In this document: in pieces, positions 6,313 to 33,261 of the stretch
Numbering within the stretch: position 1 is the stretch's first letter
Layout: every line of letters begins with the position of its first letter
From: Synechococcus sp. PCC 7336
GTDB taxonomy: Bacteria > Cyanobacteriota > Cyanobacteriia > Thermostichales > PCC-7336
Assembly: GCF_000332275.1 (NCBI RefSeq)
Contig: NZ_CM001776.1
Span: 3,103,737-3,167,736, forward strand
DNA: 64,000 nt
Direction of reading: 5' to 3'
The notes under the pieces: generated by a model
What the model was told of the DNA's origin: nothing
Databases searched by the model: none
What the model saw: the letters and a program-made list of their open reading frames with translations, nothing else
Program-made: the position numbers and the translations under genes

Positions 6313-6494
6313 CTCGCCTGCCAATAGACTGCAGCCGGTTGATGGTGCCAGAAAAAGACGGCGATCGCAAACCAGCCCTGCTTGCCTCGCGAAGAAAGAG
6401 CTGGCGATCGCTACAGTTGTCGGCCAGTTTATCGGGAGCCGTAGGCTTAGTAGTGGGGATTCGGTACAATCCACATACTCCTGCCACCACCATT

Positions 6495-7175
6495 ATGACC
6501 CCTGCCACTTTACTGCCTCAACCCAGAGCCCGTCGCGGCGATCCGCTCCAGCAACCAGACTTCTTGCATTTGTGGTCCGGCTTCTATTATGGCGAGATGG
6601 CGGCTTGCGAACTGTCGGTGCGTTTGGCTGAGATGGCCCCCGATCGCCACCTGCAGCGGTTTTCTACCGAGACCCATCACAACGACGAAACCTGGCATGC
6701 AGAAGTCTTTCAACAACTGGTCGGCCAGTTACCCGGACATCCCGCCATGCCCCCCACACCTGCTTGGGCGCAAGAGATTGCCAACACCGTGCGCACCTGC
6801 AATAGCTATGTGGAACTGACAATTGGTTCGTTGGTGGTAGAAGCTTCTGCGGTCTTTCTCTTGGAGTTACAAAGCCAATTTCCCGGTCACCTCGGTACCA
6901 CATTCCAACGAATGTTGCGGCAGGAAAAGGGGCACGTCGCCTTTGCCACTCGGTATCTGAGGGATACACTGCGCCAAGCAGAGCCCGATCGCCGCAGAGA
7001 GCTCAAAGAGCTAATCCTAGAGACGTTTCGCTACACGCGCGATCGCATTCGTCCGCAATTCGTGCGGCTTCACCTCGAACCCGTATTGCCGCTATTGGGA
7101 ATTTCGGTGCAGGATTATCGCAATCGAGCGCGCCTTGCCAGTCGCAAGGTCGTGCGATCGATCTTGCGAGGATAA
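6495..7175 (+). CDS. Ferritin-like di-iron superfamily protein
   Basis: 226-residue all-helical protein with the carboxylate and histidine pattern of the ferritin-like fold: ETWHAEVF in one helix, then ELTIGSLVVEASAV and RQEKGHVAF in the following helices, giving E, ExxH-type ligand sets. The substrate and exact subfamily are not recognisable; it could be an oxidase, hydroxylase or oxidative-stress protein. The frame is open upstream to 6339, but that stretch overlaps queD's 5' region and lacks homology. ATG 6495 lies 25 bases after a possible -10 element TACAAT (6465-6470). It is divergent from queD. Confidence 0.75.
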   Translation: MTPATLLPQPRARRGDPLQQPDFLHLWSGFYYGEMAACELSVRLAEMAPDRHLQRFSTETHHNDETWHAEVFQQLVGQLPGHPAMPPTPAWAQEIANTVRTCNSYVELTIGSLVVEASAVFLLELQSQFPGHLGTTFQRMLRQEKGHVAFATRYLRDTLRQAEPDRRRELKELILETFRYTRDRIRPQFVRLHLEPVLPLLGISVQDYRNRARLASRKVVRSILRG

Positions 7176-7275
7176 GCCTCATAGAGTCGCAGTTCACTCT
7201 TTTCAAGCTGGGATCGATCGAGATTCAACGAAAAGCGTATCGATTATCCGAACAGGCAATTTACTGCTTAACTGT

Positions 7276-8403
7276 ATGGAACCCGAGTTTTTTAAAGTTC
7301 CTCACCTAGAGAGCCTTTATACCCAGCCAGATTTGCTGAGACCCCCTGCGAATGCAGTCCCGACGCAGATCTCGATTCTTGACTATACCGCTCGTTCTGC
7401 TCGCAAGTTAGCTGTCGGCGATCTGAGCAACCTCCTCGCAACGACACATGCCGATTCAGTCACTTGGATAGATGTGCAGGGGTTGGGCAGCCTCGAATTA
7501 ATCGAGCGACTGGGTACTCTGATGGGTCTGCATCCGATGGAGCTAGCCGATATTCTCAATGTGCCGCAGCGATCGCAGTTGGAAGAATTTGACGATCGGG
7601 CCTTGATGGTGATGCATGCTGCTACTGCCAGCGACGAGCACTTTTGCTCCCAACAGGTCAGCTTGGCGATCGGGCGCAACTACATCGCTACCTTTCAAGA
7701 AGATCCCCAGTTCGACTGCTTTCAATCTGTTCGCGATCGGATTCTGTTTGGCAAAGGGCATATTCGCCAGCGGGGCGCAGATTATTTAGCCTTCGCCCTG
7801 ATCGATGCCATTGTCGATAGCTATTTCCCCGTGCTCGAAATCTACAGCGATCGCCTCGAAGCTCTAGAGGCCGAAACCACCACTGCCCCCACCCAAAAAA
7901 CGTTGACCCAAGTGCATTTCGTGCGACGGGAATTATTGGCGATACGGCGCACCCTCAGCCCGCAACGGGAATCTCTCAATGCCCTGCTGCACAGCGATAG
8001 TTTGGCTATCTTGCCAACGACTGCGATCTATCTGCGAGATGGCTACAGCCATCTCGTGCAAATTCTCGAAACAGTAGAAATTTACCGGGAGCTGGCCTCT
8101 GGCTTGGTGAATCTGTATTTATCGGCCATTGGCCATCGCATGAACGAAGTGGTCAAATTACTCACGATTATTTCAACTGTATTTATTCCTCTCACCTTTT
8201 TGGCAGGCATTTACGGCATGAACTTCAACCCCGCCAGCTCCCCGTGGAACATGCCGGAGTTGAATTGGCCGCTCGGCTACCCTCTGATTTTGTCAATCAT
8301 GCTAGTGACAGCAACAACTTCTCTAGCACTTTTTTGGAAGATTGGTTGGTTAAAAACAGACGGTATTGGCGGGCGATCGCCCAGCCAATCCAACAAGCCT
8401 TAG
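7276..8403 (+). CDS. corA: CorA-family magnesium/cobalt transporter
   Basis: Pentameric inner-membrane channel for Mg2+ or Co2+. The 375-residue protein has a large cytoplasmic N-terminal domain and two C-terminal membrane helices. The first ends in the family signature YGMNF near residue 314; the second spans about 335-360. ATG 7276 was chosen because the open frame before it runs into the preceding gene and encodes nothing family-like; the ribosome site is weak. It converges on the next gene, and the two stop codons overlap. Confidence 0.93.
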   Translation: MEPEFFKVPHLESLYTQPDLLRPPANAVPTQISILDYTARSARKLAVGDLSNLLATTHADSVTWIDVQGLGSLELIERLGTLMGLHPMELADILNVPQRSQLEEFDDRALMVMHAATASDEHFCSQQVSLAIGRNYIATFQEDPQFDCFQSVRDRILFGKGHIRQRGADYLAFALIDAIVDSYFPVLEIYSDRLEALEAETTTAPTQKTLTQVHFVRRELLAIRRTLSPQRESLNALLHSDSLAILPTTAIYLRDGYSHLVQILETVEIYRELASGLVNLYLSAIGHRMNEVVKLLTIISTVFIPLTFLAGIYGMNFNPASSPWNMPELNWPLGYPLILSIMLVTATTSLALFWKIGWLKTDGIGGRSPSQSNKP

Positions 8404-16353: not shown

Positions 16354-16739
16354 TCGGAACTTGGCAATTTATACAGCTCAGTAGAAGGTGTGTTTTTTTA
16401 GCCAGCAGCGAGCGAGGCGATTGTGAAACCAGCATGTACGCTGGCGAACTCAAAACTCGACCGAGGGTTGCAGTACGGGTTGCGATCGCGAGAAATCTTC
16501 CAGATCGCGAGATATCTTTCAATTGAAACATAGCAGCCTCCTGAGTGGAAACGTTAGACGAAGATCGATCGTGTAGCCGAACTTTAGTCGATAGACACGA
16601 GATTGAAATCGAACCTTTCTTCCCTACCGACTTGTCAAGCAACGATGGGGCGGACTATAGCAGGATTGCGTGCTATGGAAAAAATTGTCGAGAACCGTAC
16701 CGCCACCCAGTCCCTCACCTGTACCCCTCGCTGGGATTG

Positions 16740-17216
16740 TGCTGCAGCTATGGGGAAGGAGGCGATACGGCGGTTCAGAATGCGCTGCTACTGACGCGGA
16801 CAGCCGAGCGCGTCTATTTGATTCACCGGCGCGATCGCCTGCGGGCCAGCAAAATCATGCAAGAGCGGCTGTGCCTGCAGAACAAGGCTGCGATTGTCTG
16901 GAATGCAGTGGTGCGAGATATCTTGGGCAACTCAGTGGTGGAAGGTATCCACTTGGAAAATGTGGTGACGGGCGAGCAATGCCTTTTGCCGATCGCAGCT
17001 CTATTTATCTCGATCGGACTCAAGCCCAATACTGACCTGTTCCGAGGATGGCTGGAGATGGATGGGGGGTATTTGCAGGAAAGTATTCGACTGAGCCGTC
17101 AGCCCACAGTCATTGGGCAAGATCGCGACATCGAGCCCCCTTGGCGCAATCAAATGGTTTCGGTTGCGGGAGAGCCGAGAAAGTCATTCCTGACATCGCT
17201 ACCGTTTTCGAGTTGA
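16740..17216 (+). pseudogene. Thioredoxin reductase remnant (C-terminal half)
   Basis: From about 16746 the frame reads as the NADPH-binding and C-terminal part of bacterial thioredoxin reductase: GEGGDTAVQNALLLT (family GGGDTAVENA), VYLIHRRDRLRASKIMQERL, VVEGIHLENVVTGE and LFISIGLKPNTDLFRGWLEMDGGY. The FAD-binding N-terminus and CxxC redox centre are absent, and the upstream frame is unrelated. The end is degraded: the expected AGDV motif reads IGQDRDI, and the C-terminus drifts. It is therefore a decayed gene, not functional. A complete trxB presumably exists elsewhere. Confidence 0.82.
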
Positions 17217-24046: not shown

Positions 24047-24928
24047 ATGAGTCCGATCGCCAATCCCAACCTGCAAAATGATAGTGACTACGAGCGCATC
24101 GCCCGCGCGATTGCGTTCGTGCGAGAAAACCATCTCAGCCAGCCCGACCTAGCGACTGTAGCCCGACAAGTCCATCTCAGCCAGCACCACTTCCAAAAGG
24201 TATTTACCCGCTGGGTCGGTATCAGCCCCAAGAAGTTTTTACAATATCTCACCATCGAGTACGCCAAATCGAAACTTGCCGAAACCCAGAATCTCTTCGA
24301 TCTAGCGATCGATGCCGGTCTCTCTGGTTCGGGACGACTGCACGAACTGTTTGTCACAATTGAGGCAATGTCGCCGGGGGAGTTCAAAGCTGCAGGAAAA
24401 GACTTACAGATTCGATATGGCATCCACCCGACTCCGTTCGGACAGGCGGCGATCGCCACTACCGATCGCGGCATCTGCAAGCTCAGCTTTTTAGGCGATC
24501 GCGCTCCGACAGAGGCCGAGCAATTACTGCAGCGAGAGTGGAGTCAGGCCGAGATTGTTTACGATCGCCAATCCACACAGGCGATCGCCGATAGTATTTT
24601 CGATCTCGGCCAGCTCGGCCAGCAAAAACCTCTAACCCTTTTAGTCAAAGGAACGAATTTTCAACTGCAGGTTTGGCGAGCCCTGCTCAAAATTCCATTT
24701 GGCAGCCTCGCGACCTATCAAACGATCGCAAATGCGATCGATCGTCCCACGGCCACAAGAGCCATTGGCAATGCCGTCGGCCATAACCCGATCGCCTACC
24801 TAATTCCCTGCCATCGCGTCATCCGAGCCTCGGGGGCACTCAGTGGCTATCGTTGGGGCGTCGATCGCAAAGCCGCCCTCCTGGGTTGGGAAGCCGCTCA
24901 GTTGTCGAAAATTGAAGAGACTGCTTGA
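24047..24928 (+). CDS. AraC-type regulator fused to O6-methylguanine-DNA methyltransferase (Ada-like)
   Basis: 293 residues: an AraC/XylS DNA-binding domain (about 15-115, with LATVARQVHLSQHHFQKVFTRW) joined to an Ogt/AGT suicide methyltransferase domain (about 125-285) with the active site NPIAYLIPCHRVI and the FQLQVWRALLKIPFG segment. The Ada N-terminal zinc domain that senses methylphosphotriesters is absent, so activation in the classic Ada way is unlikely; repair of O6-alkylguanine should remain. The next gene begins 88 bases on. Confidence 0.9.
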   Translation: MSPIANPNLQNDSDYERIARAIAFVRENHLSQPDLATVARQVHLSQHHFQKVFTRWVGISPKKFLQYLTIEYAKSKLAETQNLFDLAIDAGLSGSGRLHELFVTIEAMSPGEFKAAGKDLQIRYGIHPTPFGQAAIATTDRGICKLSFLGDRAPTEAEQLLQREWSQAEIVYDRQSTQAIADSIFDLGQLGQQKPLTLLVKGTNFQLQVWRALLKIPFGSLATYQTIANAIDRPTATRAIGNAVGHNPIAYLIPCHRVIRASGALSGYRWGVDRKAALLGWEAAQLSKIEETA

Positions 24929-25016
24929 GGAGGGGCTCGGATTGTGGGAAGTTCTACGAGCTATCTTCTCCCTATCGCTTACAATCACTATTTATCGATC
25001 CCTAACAGGAACTGTG

Positions 25017-26909
25017 ATGGCCGGACCAGGCAAGTTAGCAGGCGATGAAAAGCGATGCATCTACGATTTGGTGGCATTTCAAGCACGGAGCAATCCAGAG
25101 GCGATCGCCATTGCGGCACCCGGGCATACCCCGCTGTCCTATCGAGAATTGTTAGAGCAGATTCACTGTATCGCTGACAAGCTAAACGCCATTGGGGTGG
25201 GACGTAACGACCGGGTGGCGATCGTCTTGCCCAATGGCCCGGAAATGGCTGTGGCTTTTTTGGCGATCGCCAGTAGCGCGACTTGCGCCCCCCTCAACCC
25301 CGCCTATCGCCAATCGGAGTATGACTTTTATCTATCCGATCTCGATGCCAAAGCCCTGATTGTTCGGTCGGGTATTGCCGTCCCTGCTGTGGAGGTCGCC
25401 CGCAAAAAAGGTATTCCTCTCCTAGAACTTTCCCCCGTCAAACAAGCCGCCGCCGGTATCTTTCAGCTCCTAGGTGGAGAACCTCAACATCCCGACCGGG
25501 GCGGGATCGCCCAACCGGAAGATGTGGCATTAGTCCTGCATACTTCAGGAACGACCTCCCGTCCCAAAATGGTGCCACTGACCGGCCACAATCTCTGCAG
25601 CTCAGCCAACAATATTGCCGCAACGTTGAGGTTAGGAGCTGGCGATCGTTGCCTGAACGTAATGCCCCTGTTTCACATCCACGGACTAGTAGGGTCTTTG
25701 TTGTCCTCCCTCAATGCAGGAGCCAGCCTGGTTTGCACTCCCGGGTTCGACGCCATCCAATTCTTTGACTGGCTAGCAGAATTTCGCCCCACCTGGTACT
25801 CGGCAGTCCCCACTATGCACCAAGCCATTCTGGCACGAGCTGTAGATTGTCGCGACATCATTGCCCAATGCCCCCTTCGCTTCATTCGCGCTTCCTCCGC
25901 TCCATTGCCCCCCCAAGTCATGGCCGCATTGGAAGCCGTATTGAATGCCCCGGCGATCGAATCCTACGGCATGACCGAAGCCTCCCATCAGATGACGAGC
26001 AATCCCCTCCCGCCTCAAGCCCGCAAGCCTGGTTCGGTAGGGGTTGCGGCAGGACCGGAAGTGGCGATCGCGGATGAGGCTGGCCAATTACTCCCTGTTG
26101 GAGAAGTGGGAGAAATCGTCATCCGGGGAGCGAATGTGACCTCTGGCTATTACAACAATCCCGACGCCAATCACAGCGCCTTTACTGAGGGTTGGTTTCG
26201 CACTGGAGACCTGGGGTACTTCGATCGCGATCGCTACCTTTTTTTGCAAGGACGCATTAAAGAAATGATTAATCGAGGGGGGGAGAAGATTGCCCCGCGA
26301 GACATTGATGAGGTCTTGCTGAGCCATCCCGATGTGGCACAGGCAGTTGCCTTCGCAATGCCCCATCCGCAGTTAGGAGAAGATATTGCAGCGGCAGTGG
26401 TACTCCAGCCGAAGAGCTCTGCTACGTCAGCCGCGATTCGAGCCTATTTATTCCAACAGTTGGCCGACTTCAAAGTTCCCAGCCAAGTGGCGATCGTGGA
26501 TGATATCCCCAAGGGAGCTACGGGCAAATTACAGCGCCTTGGTTTGGCAGATAAGCTGGCGGACGTTCTGGTCGCACAATCTGTTGCCCCCCGCAATCCG
26601 CTGGAAAAAATCATCGCCGCGACAATTCAGGAGGTCTTGGATCTAGAAACGCTCAGCATTCACGATAACTTTTTCGCAATTGGGGGAGACTCGTTACGGG
26701 GTACCCAGGTCGTCAACCGTTTGAGAGCATTGTTTGGGATTGAGCTACCCCATACCATCCTGTTTCGCCATCTGACAGTGGCTGAGCTGGCTGAGGAACT
26801 TGCAGCTTTAACCCCTAGTTCCGAGGATATGGCAGCGGTCGCTGAAGTGCTATTAGAACTGGCAAAACTTCCTCCAGAAACCATTACGCAACTCATGAAT
26901 GAATTGTGA
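25017..26909 (+). CDS. Acyl-adenylating ligase fused to a carrier domain
   Basis: 630 residues. Residues about 20-515 form an AMP-dependent acyl/CoA ligase: LHTSGTTSRPKMVP (P-loop-like A3), YGMTEASHQM, WFRTGDLGYFD and the lysine in PKGATGKLQR. Residues about 525-600 are a phosphopantetheine carrier domain with the attachment serine at about 559 (GGDSLRG). The tail is a short helical stretch that may dock to a partner. The ligase part resembles oxalate/medium-chain CoA ligases. It probably activates an organic acid and loads it on its own carrier. ATG 25017 has AGGA upstream; the frame is open further 5'. It is the first gene of the operon running to 33.6 kb. Confidence 0.9.
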   Translation: MAGPGKLAGDEKRCIYDLVAFQARSNPEAIAIAAPGHTPLSYRELLEQIHCIADKLNAIGVGRNDRVAIVLPNGPEMAVAFLAIASSATCAPLNPAYRQSEYDFYLSDLDAKALIVRSGIAVPAVEVARKKGIPLLELSPVKQAAAGIFQLLGGEPQHPDRGGIAQPEDVALVLHTSGTTSRPKMVPLTGHNLCSSANNIAATLRLGAGDRCLNVMPLFHIHGLVGSLLSSLNAGASLVCTPGFDAIQFFDWLAEFRPTWYSAVPTMHQAILARAVDCRDIIAQCPLRFIRASSAPLPPQVMAALEAVLNAPAIESYGMTEASHQMTSNPLPPQARKPGSVGVAAGPEVAIADEAGQLLPVGEVGEIVIRGANVTSGYYNNPDANHSAFTEGWFRTGDLGYFDRDRYLFLQGRIKEMINRGGEKIAPRDIDEVLLSHPDVAQAVAFAMPHPQLGEDIAAAVVLQPKSSATSAAIRAYLFQQLADFKVPSQVAIVDDIPKGATGKLQRLGLADKLADVLVAQSVAPRNPLEKIIAATIQEVLDLETLSIHDNFFAIGGDSLRGTQVVNRLRALFGIELPHTILFRHLTVAELAEELAALTPSSEDMAAVAEVLLELAKLPPETITQLMNEL

Positions 26910-26922
26910 AAAGAGCCGCATA

Positions 26923-28689
26923 ATGCCCGATCGCCAAGACCTCGCTCAAACAATCTCGACGCTCTCTGCCGCACAGCGATCGCTGCTCGGTGCAAGGCTA
27001 TCGGATACTTCGGTAGATGGCAGCACCCTCATTGCTCGCAGTTTGAAGGAGCTGGGGATCGGCCATATCTACAGCATCGCGGGGACACCCATCGATCGCA
27101 CCTTGACTGCCTGTGCCGAGGTTGGTATCTGTGTCGTGGGGGTACGCCATCAGAACAATGGAGTATTGATGGCTCTAGCTCAAAACTATGTCGCGGGCCA
27201 GCTCGTAGCGGCGGCGATCTTATCTGCAGGCCCCGCTGTAACCAATGCAGCCACTGGCATTTTGGTGGCCTGGGACAATGCCTGGCCGTTGTTAGTCTTG
27301 GGGGGGCGGCGCTCCCTGCAGATGCAAGGTAAGGGACAATTTCAGGAGCTGGATGCAGTCGCTCTCTTCCAATCCATCACTAAATATGCGGGGTTAGTTG
27401 CAACAATCGCTGAAATTCCGAATGCTCTGCGCCATGCTGTGGGGGTGGCGATCGCCGCTCGACCCGGTCCGGTTTATCTCGATATTGCCGAAGAGGTTTT
27501 TACTGACACCCAATCAACTGCAATCTCTTCAGCTCTAACCCCCACTGCCGTCACAGGACAAGACGAACCATTTGGCCTGCCAATCTCGACTCGCGAAAGC
27601 CTAAAAGACCATCCTCAAGCCATTCAGCGCGCAGCCCACCTGTTGAGTCAGGCAAGCCGCCCAGCCTTGATTGTCGGCAAGGGCGTGCGTTGGTCGACAC
27701 CCTACGCTGCTTTAGATTGCTTGGTGAATCGCTATCGGATTCCCTTTGTCACCTCCCCAATGGGTCGAGGTTTTTTACCCGACGACCATCCAATCTGTTA
27801 CACCTCGGTGCGGGCGGCATTGCTGGCGACAGCGGATGTGGTGTTAGTCTTGGGCGCACGGTTGAATTGGACCTTTCGGTTTGGGGCAGAACTGCGTGCG
27901 GAAACCGAGCTCATCCAGATTGACATTGAAGCAGCAGAACTGGAAGCCAATGTAAAACCCGATGTGGGCATTGTTGGGGATGTGGAAGTGGTTCTGGCTC
28001 AGTTATTGGCATACTTGGAGCAATCTCCCCCAAAACACCATTGTTTGCCAACCTTCCACACTTGGCTGAGAGAGCTCGATCGCCAAAAAGCACAGAAAGA
28101 GCGGGAAATCGAACCGCTCCTGACATCCGATGCGATTCCCATGTCGCCCCAGCGTCTGGTCCACGAAATTCAAGCCTGTTTACCCAGAAATGCGATCTGC
28201 ATCGTAGATGGTAGTGTCATCCTTGCTGCAACCCAGCAGGTTTTGAAAACCTATCTCCCAGTCTCTCGCTTGACCCCCGGCTCGAACGGATGCATTGGTA
28301 CAGGAATTCCTTTTGCGATCGGTGCCAAACTGGCTCAGCCCGATCGCCTAGTAGTGGCGATTTGTGGCGATACCGGAATTGGCATGAGTCTGATGGAGCT
28401 AGAGACTGCCGTTCGCTACCAAATTCCCCTGATTGTGGCGATCGCGAACAACAATGGCAACAGTGGCTCGTTGAGATCCTCCTCCCATTTAGACGGCGAG
28501 GCGAGACGGATCGCAATGTTTCAGCCCGATCTTCGCTACGAGCAAATCGTCTCTGTATTGGGCGGATACGGAGAGTTTATTACGTCACCACAAGACATAC
28601 AGCCCGCTCTCCAACGGGCGATCGCTGCAAATACCGCAGCTTGCATCAACGTCAAAGTCGATCCCGCTGCCCCCTATCCACTGTTGTAA
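26923..28689 (+). CDS. Thiamine-diphosphate enzyme, 2-hydroxyacyl-CoA lyase/oxalyl-CoA decarboxylase type
   Basis: 588 residues with the three-domain ThDP fold: Pyr domain (about 35-200), central domain (about 235-365, FVTSPMGRGFLPDDHP and VLVLGARLNWTFRFG, closest to HACL/OXC) and PP domain with the cofactor motif CGDTGIGMSLMELETA...NNN. The loop that normally carries the activating Glu (RxE in relatives) reads VRHQNNG, so Gln occupies that place. An N-terminal extension, ISTLSAAQRSLLGARL, resembles NRPS linker/docking sequences. ATG 26899 is an alternative start overlapping the previous gene. It probably acts on a carrier-bound chain. Confidence 0.87.
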   Translation: MPDRQDLAQTISTLSAAQRSLLGARLSDTSVDGSTLIARSLKELGIGHIYSIAGTPIDRTLTACAEVGICVVGVRHQNNGVLMALAQNYVAGQLVAAAILSAGPAVTNAATGILVAWDNAWPLLVLGGRRSLQMQGKGQFQELDAVALFQSITKYAGLVATIAEIPNALRHAVGVAIAARPGPVYLDIAEEVFTDTQSTAISSALTPTAVTGQDEPFGLPISTRESLKDHPQAIQRAAHLLSQASRPALIVGKGVRWSTPYAALDCLVNRYRIPFVTSPMGRGFLPDDHPICYTSVRAALLATADVVLVLGARLNWTFRFGAELRAETELIQIDIEAAELEANVKPDVGIVGDVEVVLAQLLAYLEQSPPKHHCLPTFHTWLRELDRQKAQKEREIEPLLTSDAIPMSPQRLVHEIQACLPRNAICIVDGSVILAATQQVLKTYLPVSRLTPGSNGCIGTGIPFAIGAKLAQPDRLVVAICGDTGIGMSLMELETAVRYQIPLIVAIANNNGNSGSLRSSSHLDGEARRIAMFQPDLRYEQIVSVLGGYGEFITSPQDIQPALQRAIAANTAACINVKVDPAAPYPLL

Positions 28690-28698
28690 GCGTCGCCC

Positions 28699-31600
28699 AT
28701 GTCTGATGTACCTCAATCTCTAGCTGCCAAACTGGCTCAGTTCTCTACCGCACAATGGGAACGCCTCAAGGAGCGACTACAAGAGCAACAGGCGGCACGG
28801 GGTCTGCCGTCGCAGATTCCCCGACGCTCTCCAGAGCAGGGTATTCCCCTCTCTCCCCGCAAAGCCGGAAAAATTGGCTGGCCTCTATCTCCCGGCCAGG
28901 AACGGTTGTGGTTTCTAGAACAGTTTCAGGAGATCCGCGCCGCCTACAACATCTATCGCGCAGTTCAAATGGAAGGTCCTCTGGATTGCGAGGTTTTGAA
29001 GCAGTCGATTCAGGCGATCGTCGAACGCCACGAAGCACTGCGTACCCTCTTTCAGATGCAAGCTGATGTTCCTCTCCAGGTGGTCGCTCCCCACCCGCAA
29101 ATCGACTTACCAGTGGTGGATTTGCGCGATATCCCCATTCAGGATCGGGCATCGCACTTGAAATATTGCTTGCAGGCAGAAGCGCAAACCCCCTTTGATT
29201 TAACCCAGGATTTGCCAATTCGGATCAACCTGTTTTGTCTGGCCGATCGCACTCACGTACTCAGTGTCGCAATGCATCATATTGCCGGAGATGGCTGGTC
29301 TCTGGGAATCCTGGCCGCTGAGCTGAGCGAGCTATACAGTGCCTACTTGCAGGGCGAAGACTCTCCCCTACCTTCTTTACCCATTCAATACCCCGATTTC
29401 GCCCTCTGGCAGCATCAACAACTCAGCAGTCCTCTCCTACAAGATCGGCGCAGCTATTGGCAGCAAAAGCTAATTGCTCCCTTACCCGTTGTCGAGTTAC
29501 CCAGCGATCGCCCTCGACCGCCGCTGTTAACCTATCGCGGCGCGAAATATTCACTGACGTTGCCCCTCGACCTAGTTCGAGATCTGAAAGCTCTCAGCCA
29601 GAGAGAGGGAGTGACATTGTTTGCAACCCTGTTGGCTGCCTTTAAGGTGTTGCTGTATCGATACACCCACCAAACCGATTTAATTGTTGGCACCCCAATT
29701 TCAGGGCGAACTCAGTTGGAGACGGAACCCTCGATCGGCTTTTTTGTCAACACTCTGGCACTCCGCTCGGATCTGTCTGGCAATCCGAGCTTCCTCTCGC
29801 TCTTGAAACAGGTTCATCAGACTGCCTTAGAGGCATATACCCACCAACAGGTGCCATTTGCTCAGGTTGTAGCGGATCTAGGTGTCGAGAGGGAGATGGG
29901 GCGATCGCCTCTCGTTCAAGTCATGTTCGGTTTACAAAACACCCCCGAGCGGGTTTTGCAATTGCCCGGTTTGAAACTAGGCCCCGCCTTTGCCCCTACT
30001 AGCCAGTTACAATCTGCTGTTCCACTCAGTAGCTACAGTTTGGCAGTAGACACAGCAACAGCACGCTTCGATCTCTCGCTGTTGTTGAAGGAAGAATCGG
30101 GGAGGCTGAGCGGATTTATGGAATATAGCCAGGATTTGTTTGATGAGGCGACCATTGCGAGAATGGCGAGTCATTTCCAGGGCCTGCTGGAAGAGATTGC
30201 GGCCAATCCAGAGCAATCGATTGCAATGCTGCCGCTATTAACAGAAGCCGAGCGCCATCAGCTCCTCGTGGAGTGGAATGACACTCAAACTGACTATCCG
30301 CAAGATAAGTGCGTTCACCAACTGTTTGAAGAGCAGGTGGAGCGTATTCCCAATGCAGTGGCGATCGTGTTTGGAGAGCAACAACTCACTTATCGACAGT
30401 TGAATCAACGAGCCAATAAACTCGCTCGACACCTGCAATCTTTAGGGGTTGGTCCCGAAGTCTCGGTCGGGATCTGTGTAGAACGGTCACTAGAGATGGT
30501 AGTGGGATTGTTGGGCATTCTCAAAGCTGGTGGGGCTTACGTTCCCCTGGACCCCAACTATCCGCGCGCGAGACTGCGCTTCATGCTTGAGGATGCCCAA
30601 ATCACCTTTGTAGTGATTCAGAAAAGTTTGCAAGAATCTCTACCTTCCAATCTGCCGATTCAGACAATATGGCTTCAGCAAATAGATATGAATCCAGAGG
30701 CAGAAGTCCTAGCCCAAGACAATCTAGAGAATCCTGTAACTGAAATAGTCGCTGAAAATTTGGCATACATCCCGTACACCTCTGGCTCAACCGGTGCTCC
30801 GAAAGGGGTGGAAGTTGTCCACCGGGGAATTACTCGACTAGCGCGCAATACTCAATACGCGAGCATTCAACCGAGCGATATTTGTTTGCAGCTAGCTCCG
30901 CTTTCTTTCGATGCATCCAGCTTCGAGATTTGGGGATGCCTGCTCAATGGTGCTCAGTTGGTCGTAATGCCGCCTCAACCACCAACCCTGTCAGAATTGG
31001 GCAATACAATCCGAAAACACAACATCAGTATTTTATGGCTGACTGCGGGATTGTTCCATCTGATGGTCGAGCAACAATTGTCAGACTTAACATCTGTCCG
31101 TCAATTACTGGCTGGGGGAGATGTATTATCAGTATCTCATATTCAAAAATTCACGAGCGCCCATCCCCACTGCCAAGTTGTCAATGGATACGGCCCCACA
31201 GAAAATACAACATTCACTTGTTGTTATCCAGTCACCCATTGCGAGGAGCTTGAGAGATCCGCCCCCATCGGTCGTCCAATTGCTAACACCACAGTCTACA
31301 TTTTAGATAGCTACTTACAACCTGTTGCCATCGGCGTTCCGGGGGAGCTGTATGCAGGAGGAGATGGATTGGCTCGCGGCTATCTCAACCAGCCCGAGTT
31401 AACAACTGAGAGATTCATTCCCAACCTATTCGATCGAGAATCGGTCTCTCGATTGTATAAAACAGGCGATCTGGCCCGCTATCTCCCCGACGGCAACATC
31501 GAATTCCTCGGTCGCATTGACAACCAGGTTAAAATTCGAGGCTTCCGCATTGAGTTGGGAGAAGTTGAAGCAGTCCTACTTCAACTTCCCAATGTTGTAG

Positions 31601-33261
31601 ACGGCCTGGTTTTAGCCCGAGAAGACATTCCGGGGGATAAACGTTTAGTCGCTTACGTAGTTCCCACTCAGAAGCAGGCGCTGACTTTAGACACTCTGCG
31701 CAATTTCATGAAGCAGAAGTTACCAAGCTACATGGTGCCTAATATCTTTTTGGTTTTGGAAGCATTTCCCCTCACCCCTAATGGAAAAATCGACCGCCGC
31801 GCCTTACCCGTCCCAGATCGATGCCGACAGAACCCAGAAAGCACTTACATTGCCCCTCGGACTCCTGTCGAGCAAAAACTGGCTGAAATCTGGGCAAAAG
31901 TACTTTGGCTAGAGCATGAAATCAGTATTCACGATAACTTTTTCGATCTCGGCGGCCATTCTTTACTCTCAGTTCGCTTAGTAGCCGAAATCGAGCAAGT
32001 ATTCAAGCAAGAACTCCCCGTTGCTGCTCTGTTTCAACTCAGTACCATTGCCGAACTGGCCCCACTGTTAGAACCTGGCAAGGAAGTTACAGGCAATGAA
32101 GCGAGCCAGGGAAGGCTGATTCCGTTAAAGGCTGGCGATCGCAATCCAGCAAAGGCTGCAGTCGCGCCTCGATCGCTAGACTCGGCAATCTATCACAAGC
32201 TTCTCGCCTTCACGGCTGGCTGGGGAGGCAAAAGAATTGCTGCCAATGCCCTCAGCGTGGGCATGAATACCGACGGGATATCTCAACCCCTATATTGGTG
32301 CTTGCAAGGGTTTCGAGAACTGAAGCAATTGGCTCGATATCTCGGTACCGACCGACCGGTGTATGGTATGCGTTCTGGCCATCATGCCATGCAATACACT
32401 GACTCGAACATTGCTGCATTAGCCACTCACTATGTCCGAGAAATTCTCGCGGTGCAACCCAAAGGGCCCTACCTAATCGGTGGAAACTGTCAGGGGGGGC
32501 GGATTGCTTTTGAAATTGCCCAACAACTTTGGCAACGAGGCCAAGCGATCGCACTGTTAGCGCTGTTGGAAGTGCCTAAACCAAAGCAATATCCCGGTCG
32601 TCTTGCTCTGTTGTTCGGGCGCGATAGCCACTTGAGCCCCTACCGCTCGTATCGTTGGCCCGAGTGGGGCTGGCGCAAGTTCTATCCCAGCGGTTTTTCC
32701 GTGGATTTGATTCCTTGTCAGCATGGTAAGTTTTTTGATGAACCGAATGTTCAGATCTTAGCTAAACATTTACTCACTCATATTCAGGAGGTACCAACCA
32801 CCTTAACCTCCTCGAAACTCTTACCCGATCGGATTACTTATGATTTGCTGCCGGATGCGGCATATCGAGCCCAACTCACTTCACCACCATCACTGACAGC
32901 TCTAGCGGGCGAGCTAATAGACATTTCAGTTACTGTGAAAAATATCAGCCCCTTCCTTTGGCTTCCTTCAACAGAGAGTGGGATTACTCTGGGCAATCAC
33001 TGGCTAGATCGGAAAGGAAATGTGGTTTGTTGGTCTGATGGTAGAGTTACCCTACTAGAAGAATTGCCCGCTAACGCAGAGGTTGCCCTAACGCTATCAG
33101 TGACGGCACCAATGGATGTAGGTGATTACATTCTAGAATTAGATTTGGTGGAGGAAGGGGTGGTTTGGTTTAAAGAAAAAGGCTCTTCGAGCGCGCGGAC
33201 AAATGTTAAAGTATCACATCGAGAGGCGAGTCATGGCCAGACGGGGTGCAGGGGGTACTAA
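28699..33261 (+). CDS. Single-module NRPS: C-A-PCP-TE with Ig-like C-terminal domain
   Basis: 1520 residues. N-terminal helix (about 5-35); condensation domain (about 60-500) with HHIAGDG at 193-199; adenylation domain (about 525-1040) with YTSGSTGAPKG at 693, NGYGPTENTT at 829 and the A10 lysine at 1030; carrier domain with Ser about 1088 (GGHS); thioesterase (about 1170-1370) with GGNCQGG, so Cys1264 replaces the usual Ser, and a likely catalytic His about 1342. Residues 1385-1500 form an Ig-like beta-sandwich. Binding-pocket residues read DAFWLGGTFK, which points to valine. It starts 10 bases after the lyase gene. Product unknown. Confidence 0.95.
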   Translation: MSDVPQSLAAKLAQFSTAQWERLKERLQEQQAARGLPSQIPRRSPEQGIPLSPRKAGKIGWPLSPGQERLWFLEQFQEIRAAYNIYRAVQMEGPLDCEVLKQSIQAIVERHEALRTLFQMQADVPLQVVAPHPQIDLPVVDLRDIPIQDRASHLKYCLQAEAQTPFDLTQDLPIRINLFCLADRTHVLSVAMHHIAGDGWSLGILAAELSELYSAYLQGEDSPLPSLPIQYPDFALWQHQQLSSPLLQDRRSYWQQKLIAPLPVVELPSDRPRPPLLTYRGAKYSLTLPLDLVRDLKALSQREGVTLFATLLAAFKVLLYRYTHQTDLIVGTPISGRTQLETEPSIGFFVNTLALRSDLSGNPSFLSLLKQVHQTALEAYTHQQVPFAQVVADLGVEREMGRSPLVQVMFGLQNTPERVLQLPGLKLGPAFAPTSQLQSAVPLSSYSLAVDTATARFDLSLLLKEESGRLSGFMEYSQDLFDEATIARMASHFQGLLEEIAANPEQSIAMLPLLTEAERHQLLVEWNDTQTDYPQDKCVHQLFEEQVERIPNAVAIVFGEQQLTYRQLNQRANKLARHLQSLGVGPEVSVGICVERSLEMVVGLLGILKAGGAYVPLDPNYPRARLRFMLEDAQITFVVIQKSLQESLPSNLPIQTIWLQQIDMNPEAEVLAQDNLENPVTEIVAENLAYIPYTSGSTGAPKGVEVVHRGITRLARNTQYASIQPSDICLQLAPLSFDASSFEIWGCLLNGAQLVVMPPQPPTLSELGNTIRKHNISILWLTAGLFHLMVEQQLSDLTSVRQLLAGGDVLSVSHIQKFTSAHPHCQVVNGYGPTENTTFTCCYPVTHCEELERSAPIGRPIANTTVYILDSYLQPVAIGVPGELYAGGDGLARGYLNQPELTTERFIPNLFDRESVSRLYKTGDLARYLPDGNIEFLGRIDNQVKIRGFRIELGEVEAVLLQLPNVVDGLVLAREDIPGDKRLVAYVVPTQKQALTLDTLRNFMKQKLPSYMVPNIFLVLEAFPLTPNGKIDRRALPVPDRCRQNPESTYIAPRTPVEQKLAEIWAKVLWLEHEISIHDNFFDLGGHSLLSVRLVAEIEQVFKQELPVAALFQLSTIAELAPLLEPGKEVTGNEASQGRLIPLKAGDRNPAKAAVAPRSLDSAIYHKLLAFTAGWGGKRIAANALSVGMNTDGISQPLYWCLQGFRELKQLARYLGTDRPVYGMRSGHHAMQYTDSNIAALATHYVREILAVQPKGPYLIGGNCQGGRIAFEIAQQLWQRGQAIALLALLEVPKPKQYPGRLALLFGRDSHLSPYRSYRWPEWGWRKFYPSGFSVDLIPCQHGKFFDEPNVQILAKHLLTHIQEVPTTLTSSKLLPDRITYDLLPDAAYRAQLTSPPSLTALAGELIDISVTVKNISPFLWLPSTESGITLGNHWLDRKGNVVCWSDGRVTLLEELPANAEVALTLSVTAPMDVGDYILELDLVEEGVVWFKEKGSSSARTNVKVSHREASHGQTGCRGY

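Follow-up and report, generated by a model that had tools for sequence, protein, structure and literature searches.

A putative family of ThDP-dependent enzymes with glutamine at the activating-glutamate position, encoded beside adenylation-carrier protein genes in Synechococcus sp. PCC 7336 and three further genomes

The window analyzed here, a stretch of 64,000 nucleotides from Synechococcus sp. PCC 7336, carries three adjoining genes that encode an adenylation protein with its own carrier domain (A-PCP), a ThDP-dependent enzyme and a nonribosomal peptide synthetase (NRPS) module (Table 1). The A-PCP and ThDP genes share 11 bases at their junction, and the NRPS gene begins 9 bases past the ThDP stop; we infer that such co-stranded, closely spaced gene sets, here and at the related loci described below, are operons. 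The ThDP protein is 596 amino acids long, and position 26923, taken as its start in a sequence-only reading of this DNA, is the in-frame Met9. The mechanical ORF of the A-PCP gene runs from a GTG at 24843 to 26909; because this longer ORF overlaps an upstream Ada-like gene, the Met at 25017 is the likelier start. In the NRPS protein, the condensation motif HHIAGDG lies at residue 193, and the A-domain pocket, read by eye, is DAFWLGGTFK, which we take to be valine-like. The thioesterase of this protein has GGNCQG (32479–32496, residue 1261), with Cys in a motif where type I thioesterases usually have Ser. A similar GGNCKG occurs on a Gemmobacter aquarius plasmid (L013, 7941–10562) in a single protein that has an A domain 38% identical to that of the window's A-PCP protein, a carrier domain and what looks by eye like a thioesterase; the 17.7 kb shown contain no annotated ThDP gene. 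Elsewhere in the window, an ORF at 16545–17216 resembles a thioredoxin reductase fragment by eye and is possibly a decayed gene. The window's genome, a single contig of 5,066,637 bases, encodes both photosystem I proteins, PsaA and PsaB, as expected of a cyanobacterium; among 14 control genomes, these occur only in Synechococcus elongatus.

Table 1. Positions of the genes and sites discussed, numbered from the first base of the window
Feature	Position	Strand	Basis
A-PCP protein: oxalate-CoA-ligase-like adenylation domain and carrier domain	25017..26909	+	Pfam AMP-binding, AMP-binding_C, PP-binding; PDB matches
Ser codon of carrier motif GGDSL (phosphopantetheine site)	26691..26693	+	Motif
ThDP-dependent enzyme, OXC/HACL branch, Gln85 for activating Glu	26899..28689	+	TPP_enzyme_N/M/C (Pfam), PDB and NCBIfam matches, tree
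N-terminal 22-aa element (residues 15-36) resembling N-termini of condensation-domain proteins	26941..27006	+	BLOSUM62 comparison, predicted helices
Codon CAG of Gln85, activating-glutamate position	27151..27153	+	Alignments
GDT (GGC GAT ACC), the GDG motif, Asp491 kept	28366..28374	+	Alignment
Asn518, kept	28450-28452	+	Alignment
NRPS module C-A-PCP-TE	28699..33261	+	Pfam, motifs, spacing

The ThDP protein has the traits of the ThDP-dependent decarboxylase superfamily, namely three TPP_enzyme domains and the GD...NN residues. Its best PDB matches are 2-hydroxyacyl-CoA lyase (HACL; 9.4e-94) and then oxalyl-CoA decarboxylase (OXC; 2.1e-65), and Foldseek places HACL chains at ranks 1–22 and OXC 2q28 at rank 23. 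Against NCBIfam, the best model, acetolactate synthase PRK05858, scored below its cut-off (355.1 of 587 bits), as did the OXC models (319.7 of 557 and 286.2 of 739.4 bits, with equivalog cut-offs) and the HACL model (252.5 of 600 bits). The structural model, built from a three-row alignment, is of middling quality (mean pLDDT 64, pTM 0.63), suited to judging the fold and not to positioning the cofactor. The structure comparison with OXC and HACL suggested earlier bears out the relationship at the level of fold, and the matching of individual residues comes from sequence alignment.

The sequence-only reading had placed, by eye, a Gln where relatives carry the Glu that activates the cofactor, and this assignment holds. 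The loop reads G-V-R-H-Q85-N-N; HMMER aligns it without a gap to the R-N-E-Q of HACL chains 8vza and 6xn8, and MAFFT sets Q85 on Glu54 of EcOXC, so that Q85 stands opposite the Glu of both enzymes. Residues 75–97 contain no Glu at all, and the true Glu therefore does not lie elsewhere in the loop. The replacement is also rare among relatives, as had been supposed: 15 of 16 comparison ThDP proteins have Glu and one (L021) has Val. In this small, non-random set, three proteins come from the window's genome, six from the genome of locus L006 and five from plasmid records; EcOXC and a single Dehalococcoidia protein complete it. The tally leaves out repeats (L001, L005, L017, L025, L027, L028), a fragment (L024) and one partial hit in the L006 genome that has no locus. 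For the ThDP superfamily, PMC3534367 gives the activating Glu in 94% of sequences and Val, the mark of glyoxylate carboligase, in 3%; by these figures about 3% would have other residues, and further Gln sequences may exist. A second oddity raised earlier, GDT in place of GDG in the cofactor motif, is real but unremarkable. The third letter is T, Y, M and Y in the four family members; 13 of the 16 comparators have G, and the exceptions are EcOXC (S), L003 (A) and L021 (Y). Given GDS in EcOXC and the variation within the family, we reject the idea that GDT is functionally abnormal.

A pattern scan across 84,980 species, with one genome per species, returned two loci, one of which is a close relative: L006, from a Candidatus Competibacteraceae MAG, whose best segment is 43% identical to the window's ThDP protein. 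Profile searches at 1e-130 gave L026 (genome G777), where 2 of 369 genomes in the class of the L006 genome matched, the other being that genome itself, and L029 (genome G1173), where 2 of 23 genomes in the order of G777 matched, the other being G777. Only the L006 genome itself matched in a phylum sweep (1 of 398 genomes) and in its own order (1 of 40). A wide cyanobacterial spread of the Gln family was not seen, as only the window's own genome matched among 59 of its relatives at 1e-100 and among 386 genomes of its phylum at 1e-70. The sweeps of 386, 369 and 398 genomes are samples of larger groups, with at most three candidates scored per genome. The Gln family is rare in these samples, in which cut-offs, sampling and the three-candidate limit can hide members.

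All three orthologs found, at 41–44% identity, share the Gln and none has Glu, which answers the question of orthologs raised in the sequence-only reading. The four loops read VRHQNN, VHNQQA, TRHQQA and VCHQTS, in proteins with a pairwise identity of only 41–45%, two of which lie at or near contig ends. In the tree, the four Gln rows fall on one side of a branch with support of 100/99. EcOXC is the next row (95/91, in a tree without HACL sequences), a placement that is less sure because EcOXC forms a long branch. The Gln-for-Glu exchange thus looks like the property of a small conserved enzyme family, not a chance mutation. In the same tree, L008, L009, L010, L011, L012 and L018 form a separate tight ThDP clade with the normal Glu, which is probably another oxalate-related ThDP enzyme, given the formyl-CoA transferase and succinate-CoA ligase annotations beside L009 and L011.

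The neighborhood of the ThDP gene is conserved in part. An A-PCP gene accompanies it at all four loci, directly upstream in the window, L006 and L029 and with one gene between in L026, and a condensation-domain protein follows it at three of four. The exception is L006, where the A-PCP and ThDP genes on one strand are succeeded by opposite-strand genes and no condensation domain was seen in the ORF list of the locus. The order in L026 is A-PCP, a PEP-mutase/ICL-family gene, ThDP and a stand-alone condensation domain, with the start of a second condensation-type protein, by eye, at the contig end; in L029 it is A-PCP, ThDP and a C-A protein truncated at the end of the contig. In L006, a gene for a DAO-family FAD oxidase (6372–7904), which may supply an aldehyde or oxo acid, immediately precedes the A-PCP gene on the same strand.

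The A-PCP proteins of the four loci, mutually 50–55% identical, all carry GGDS in the carrier domain. Among the best 60 of 70 PDB matches, the window's A domain is closest to solved oxalate-CoA ligases (6qjz 6.5e-129, 5ie0 6.8e-126, 8aff 6.3e-111, 8atd 3.1e-81), followed by LgrA of linear gramicidin synthase (6.4e-77 over A domain and carrier) and malonyl-CoA synthetase (1.4e-62). Between its stretch YGMTEASHQMTSNPLP and yeast 8aff, 2 of 16 positions are different. With the A-PCP protein, all 25 NCBIfam models listed, of 109, stayed below their cut-offs. Two stand-alone plasmid AMP-binding proteins are 51–57% identical to the four A-PCP proteins and, at 56.9% and 54.2%, are the closest to the window's A domain of those compared. 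Oxalate is the substrate that we infer for this domain because the solved oxalate-CoA ligases match best; the closeness to the two plasmid proteins weighs against this. With such a neighbor, the likely substrate of the ThDP enzyme would be carrier-bound oxalyl. The accessible open-licence literature yielded no oxalate-binding residues for plant or yeast oxalyl-CoA synthetase, and a search there for BbmA/CsmA, names taken from the PDB, found nothing relevant. The stand-alone AMP-binding protein of L015 (7965–9497), 57% identical to the window's A domain, is encoded beside ABC-transporter genes and a gene annotated as 2-dehydropantoate 2-reductase; its substrate could indicate that of the window's domain.

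The gene between A-PCP and ThDP in L026 might, as a weak candidate, be an oxalate supplier if its product is an oxaloacetate hydrolase. In the four alignments listed, Ser229 of this PEP-mutase/ICL-family protein falls on the Ser of petal death protein (1zlp) and opposite Pro in 4iqd and two methylisocitrate lyases; a Ser at this position is presumably the mark of oxaloacetate hydrolases, which make oxalate. Its best PDB match is 4iqd (8.4e-37), and the hydrolase 3lye scores 2.3e-21. A search of the window's genome, run without a positive control, gave no match to the protein.

Several residues of the OXC active site are replaced in the Gln family. Y118 and E119 of EcOXC correspond to F and Q in all four members (F148 and Q149 in the window), and Y478 and S550 fall on gaps in the family alignment. 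The roles of the Tyr/Glu pair and of the C-terminal Tyr and Ser in OXC are described in PMC8411744; with none of the four kept, the OXC proton relay is missing, and formyl release would be weakened. F and Q are the commonest superfamily residues at the first two positions (58% and 81%, PMC3534367), and Gln is listed for several HACLs at the position of E119 in PMC13327070. The active site thus looks more HACL-like than OXC-like, and, judged from aligned active-site residues, the protein is neither OXC, HACL nor glyoxylate carboligase. All four members retain Gly490, Asp491, Asn517, Asn518 and the F-Q pair; three of them have SAGPAVTN, and SAGPAVSN stands in L029, which lacks seven residues immediately ahead of its F-Q pair.

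An N-terminal 22-residue element, roughly L..RL..LSP.KR.LL...L, occurs in all four ThDP proteins and is found as well at the start of the condensation-domain proteins in the same operons. Its mean BLOSUM62 score against the N-termini of the latter is 31.1 per pair, compared with −11.3 for shuffles (sd 3.9, highest 2.9 of 2000), a figure that is generous because the stretches were picked by eye. The family scores 25–39 against the elements of the condensation-domain proteins, and for the 16 comparators the highest-scoring 22-mer of each protein, wherever it lies, gives 0.8–18.8. Helices are predicted at residues 12–20 and 24–36 of the model, and the element probably serves in docking. At the C-terminus, 7, 7, 8 and 18 residues follow a conserved DP in the family (7 in the window, 18 in L029), compared with 20 in EcOXC, 9 in L007 and 14 in six plasmid/L018 relatives. 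PMC11271303 and PMC8760513 describe this region of OXC and HACL as a lid closing over the acyl-CoA. By length and alignment, the acyl-CoA-covering region of HACL is absent from the window protein, and the three short tails leave no room for such a lid over CoA. The tail of L029 appears long enough to allow one, and, with 9 residues in L007, a short tail by itself is not specific to carrier substrates.

These features suggest a three-protein system that would begin the assembly of a short nonribosomal peptide from an acyl starter modified by one-carbon chemistry. In our best reading, the ThDP enzyme would carry out reactions of the OXC/HACL type on the carrier-bound unit, and the product handed to the condensation domain would be formyl-S-PCP (slightly favored) or 2-hydroxyacyl-S-PCP. 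By homology, the A domain would adenylate oxalate and load it onto its own carrier as oxalyl-S-PCP. The ThDP enzyme would then use the helical element at its N-terminus to dock onto the A-PCP protein, and ThDP would attack the oxalyl carbonyl with expulsion of CO2 as in OXC, the carrier phosphopantetheine replacing CoA. The catalytic Glu of HACL contacts N1' of ThDP, as stated in PMC11271303; Gln85 may hold N1' by a hydrogen bond without proton transfer. Because Gln85 cannot protonate N1', ylide formation should be slow, which may be offset by the tethered, highly activated substrate. In the last and least certain step, the carbanion would be protonated and leave as formyl-S-PCP, and the condensation domain would use it to place an N-formyl group on the amino acid of the following module, for which the pocket appears valine-like.

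The slight lean toward formyl-S-PCP arises because the three genes would then need no further substrate. Its odds are modest, given that the L029 tail is near the length of EcOXC and the L007 tail is short, and we rate decarboxylation of oxalyl-S-PCP to formyl-S-PCP for a downstream condensation domain, taken by itself, as possible but rather unlikely. The broader proposal, a new ThDP family that has Gln for the activating Glu and carries out one-carbon umpolung on an NRPS carrier to give a formyl-S-PCP or 2-hydroxyacyl-S-PCP starter of a short peptide, is one that we hold tentatively, with confidence a little short of even. Roughly a quarter of our expectation lies with readings not named individually.

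Alternatively, an aldehyde could trap the carbanion formed from oxalyl-S-PCP, and the starter would then be a 2-hydroxyacyl-S-PCP, in the manner of HACL run in reverse with formyl-CoA. We consider this carboligation unlikely, even with HACL as the best match in sequence and fold and with the family's F-Q shared by HACL chain 8vza. According to PMC8411744, MeOXC carrying E135G, A415C, Y497F and S568G acquired carboligation activity, while its efficiency in decarboxylation fell to <0.2%, and glyoxylate carboligase, the known Glu-less family, is a ligase (PMC3534367). However, Tyr134 of MeOXC is considered important for carboligation in PMC8411744, and the family has Phe at this position. Nor can an acceptor be named: no aldehyde-making gene is common to the loci, the oxidase upstream in L006 having no counterpart seen by eye in the other three ORF lists. 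The Gln might instead mark a dead enzyme retained as a non-catalytic partner for docking or scaffolding. Exchange of this Glu for Gln is a well-known way to impair ThDP enzymes, and the OXC proton-relay residues are also gone, but the retained Gly, Asp, Asn and F-Q residues, the SAGPAV(T/S)N motif and stop-free frames in four genomes make this quite unlikely. Were the enzyme to run in the lyase direction, as HACL being the nearest solved family might suggest, the A-PCP protein would load a 2-hydroxy acid and the ThDP enzyme would cleave it to an aldehyde and formyl-S-PCP; this is improbable given that the A domain, among the best 60 of 70 PDB matches, lies far closer to oxalate-CoA ligases than to ligases of larger acids. 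A chance mutation at this one locus, or a sequencing error, in an otherwise normal OXC or HACL is ruled out for practical purposes by orthologs that share the Gln within one strongly supported clade, as all four would need misreading. We favor an active enzyme with a changed mode, a view suggested by the kept Asp491, Asn517 and Asn518, the open frames and a Gln conserved at such low pairwise identity.

A conserved natural Gln family would allow the role of the activating Glu to be tested in an evolved, not a mutated, enzyme. If the proposal is correct, the family would represent a second natural solution, beside glyoxylate carboligase, to working without this Glu, and would make N-formyl or 2-hydroxyacyl starter units by a new route, useful for one-carbon bioengineering. 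Searches of a collection of open-licence papers returned no account of one-carbon chemistry in which oxalate is processed on a carrier protein.

Among known systems, HACL (PDB 8vza–8vzk, 6xn8) is the most similar in sequence and fold and shares the F-Q pair and the Asp and Asn of the ThDP/Mg site, whereas the window family has Gln for the catalytic Glu, a short tail in three of four members, an additional N-terminal NRPS-like element and an adjoining A-PCP gene. OXC (2q27, 2c31, 7ayg) shares the overall fold and an oxalate-type partner gene and is the next row of the tree, with the long EcOXC branch noted above, but E54, Y118, E119, Y478 and S550 of EcOXC become Q, F, Q, gap and gap in the window protein. 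Glyoxylate carboligase is likewise a natural ThDP enzyme without the Glu (PMC3534367); in contrast, it has Val where the window protein has Gln, and it is more distant (8beo 5.7e-37, against 9.4e-94 for HACL), with the Val-bearing L021 on the far side of the tree. The oxalate-CoA ligases (6qjz, 5ie0, 8aff) are the nearest solved relatives of the window's A domain, which, unlike them, is fused to a carrier domain, so that the thioester is probably made on the carrier and not on CoA. In LgrA, the N-formylating initiation protein of linear gramicidin synthesis, an N-formyl amino acid at the start of the peptide is made by a formyltransferase domain. The proposed pathway would also give an N-formyl amino acid at this place, but with a formyl group that the ThDP enzyme would generate from carrier-bound oxalate.
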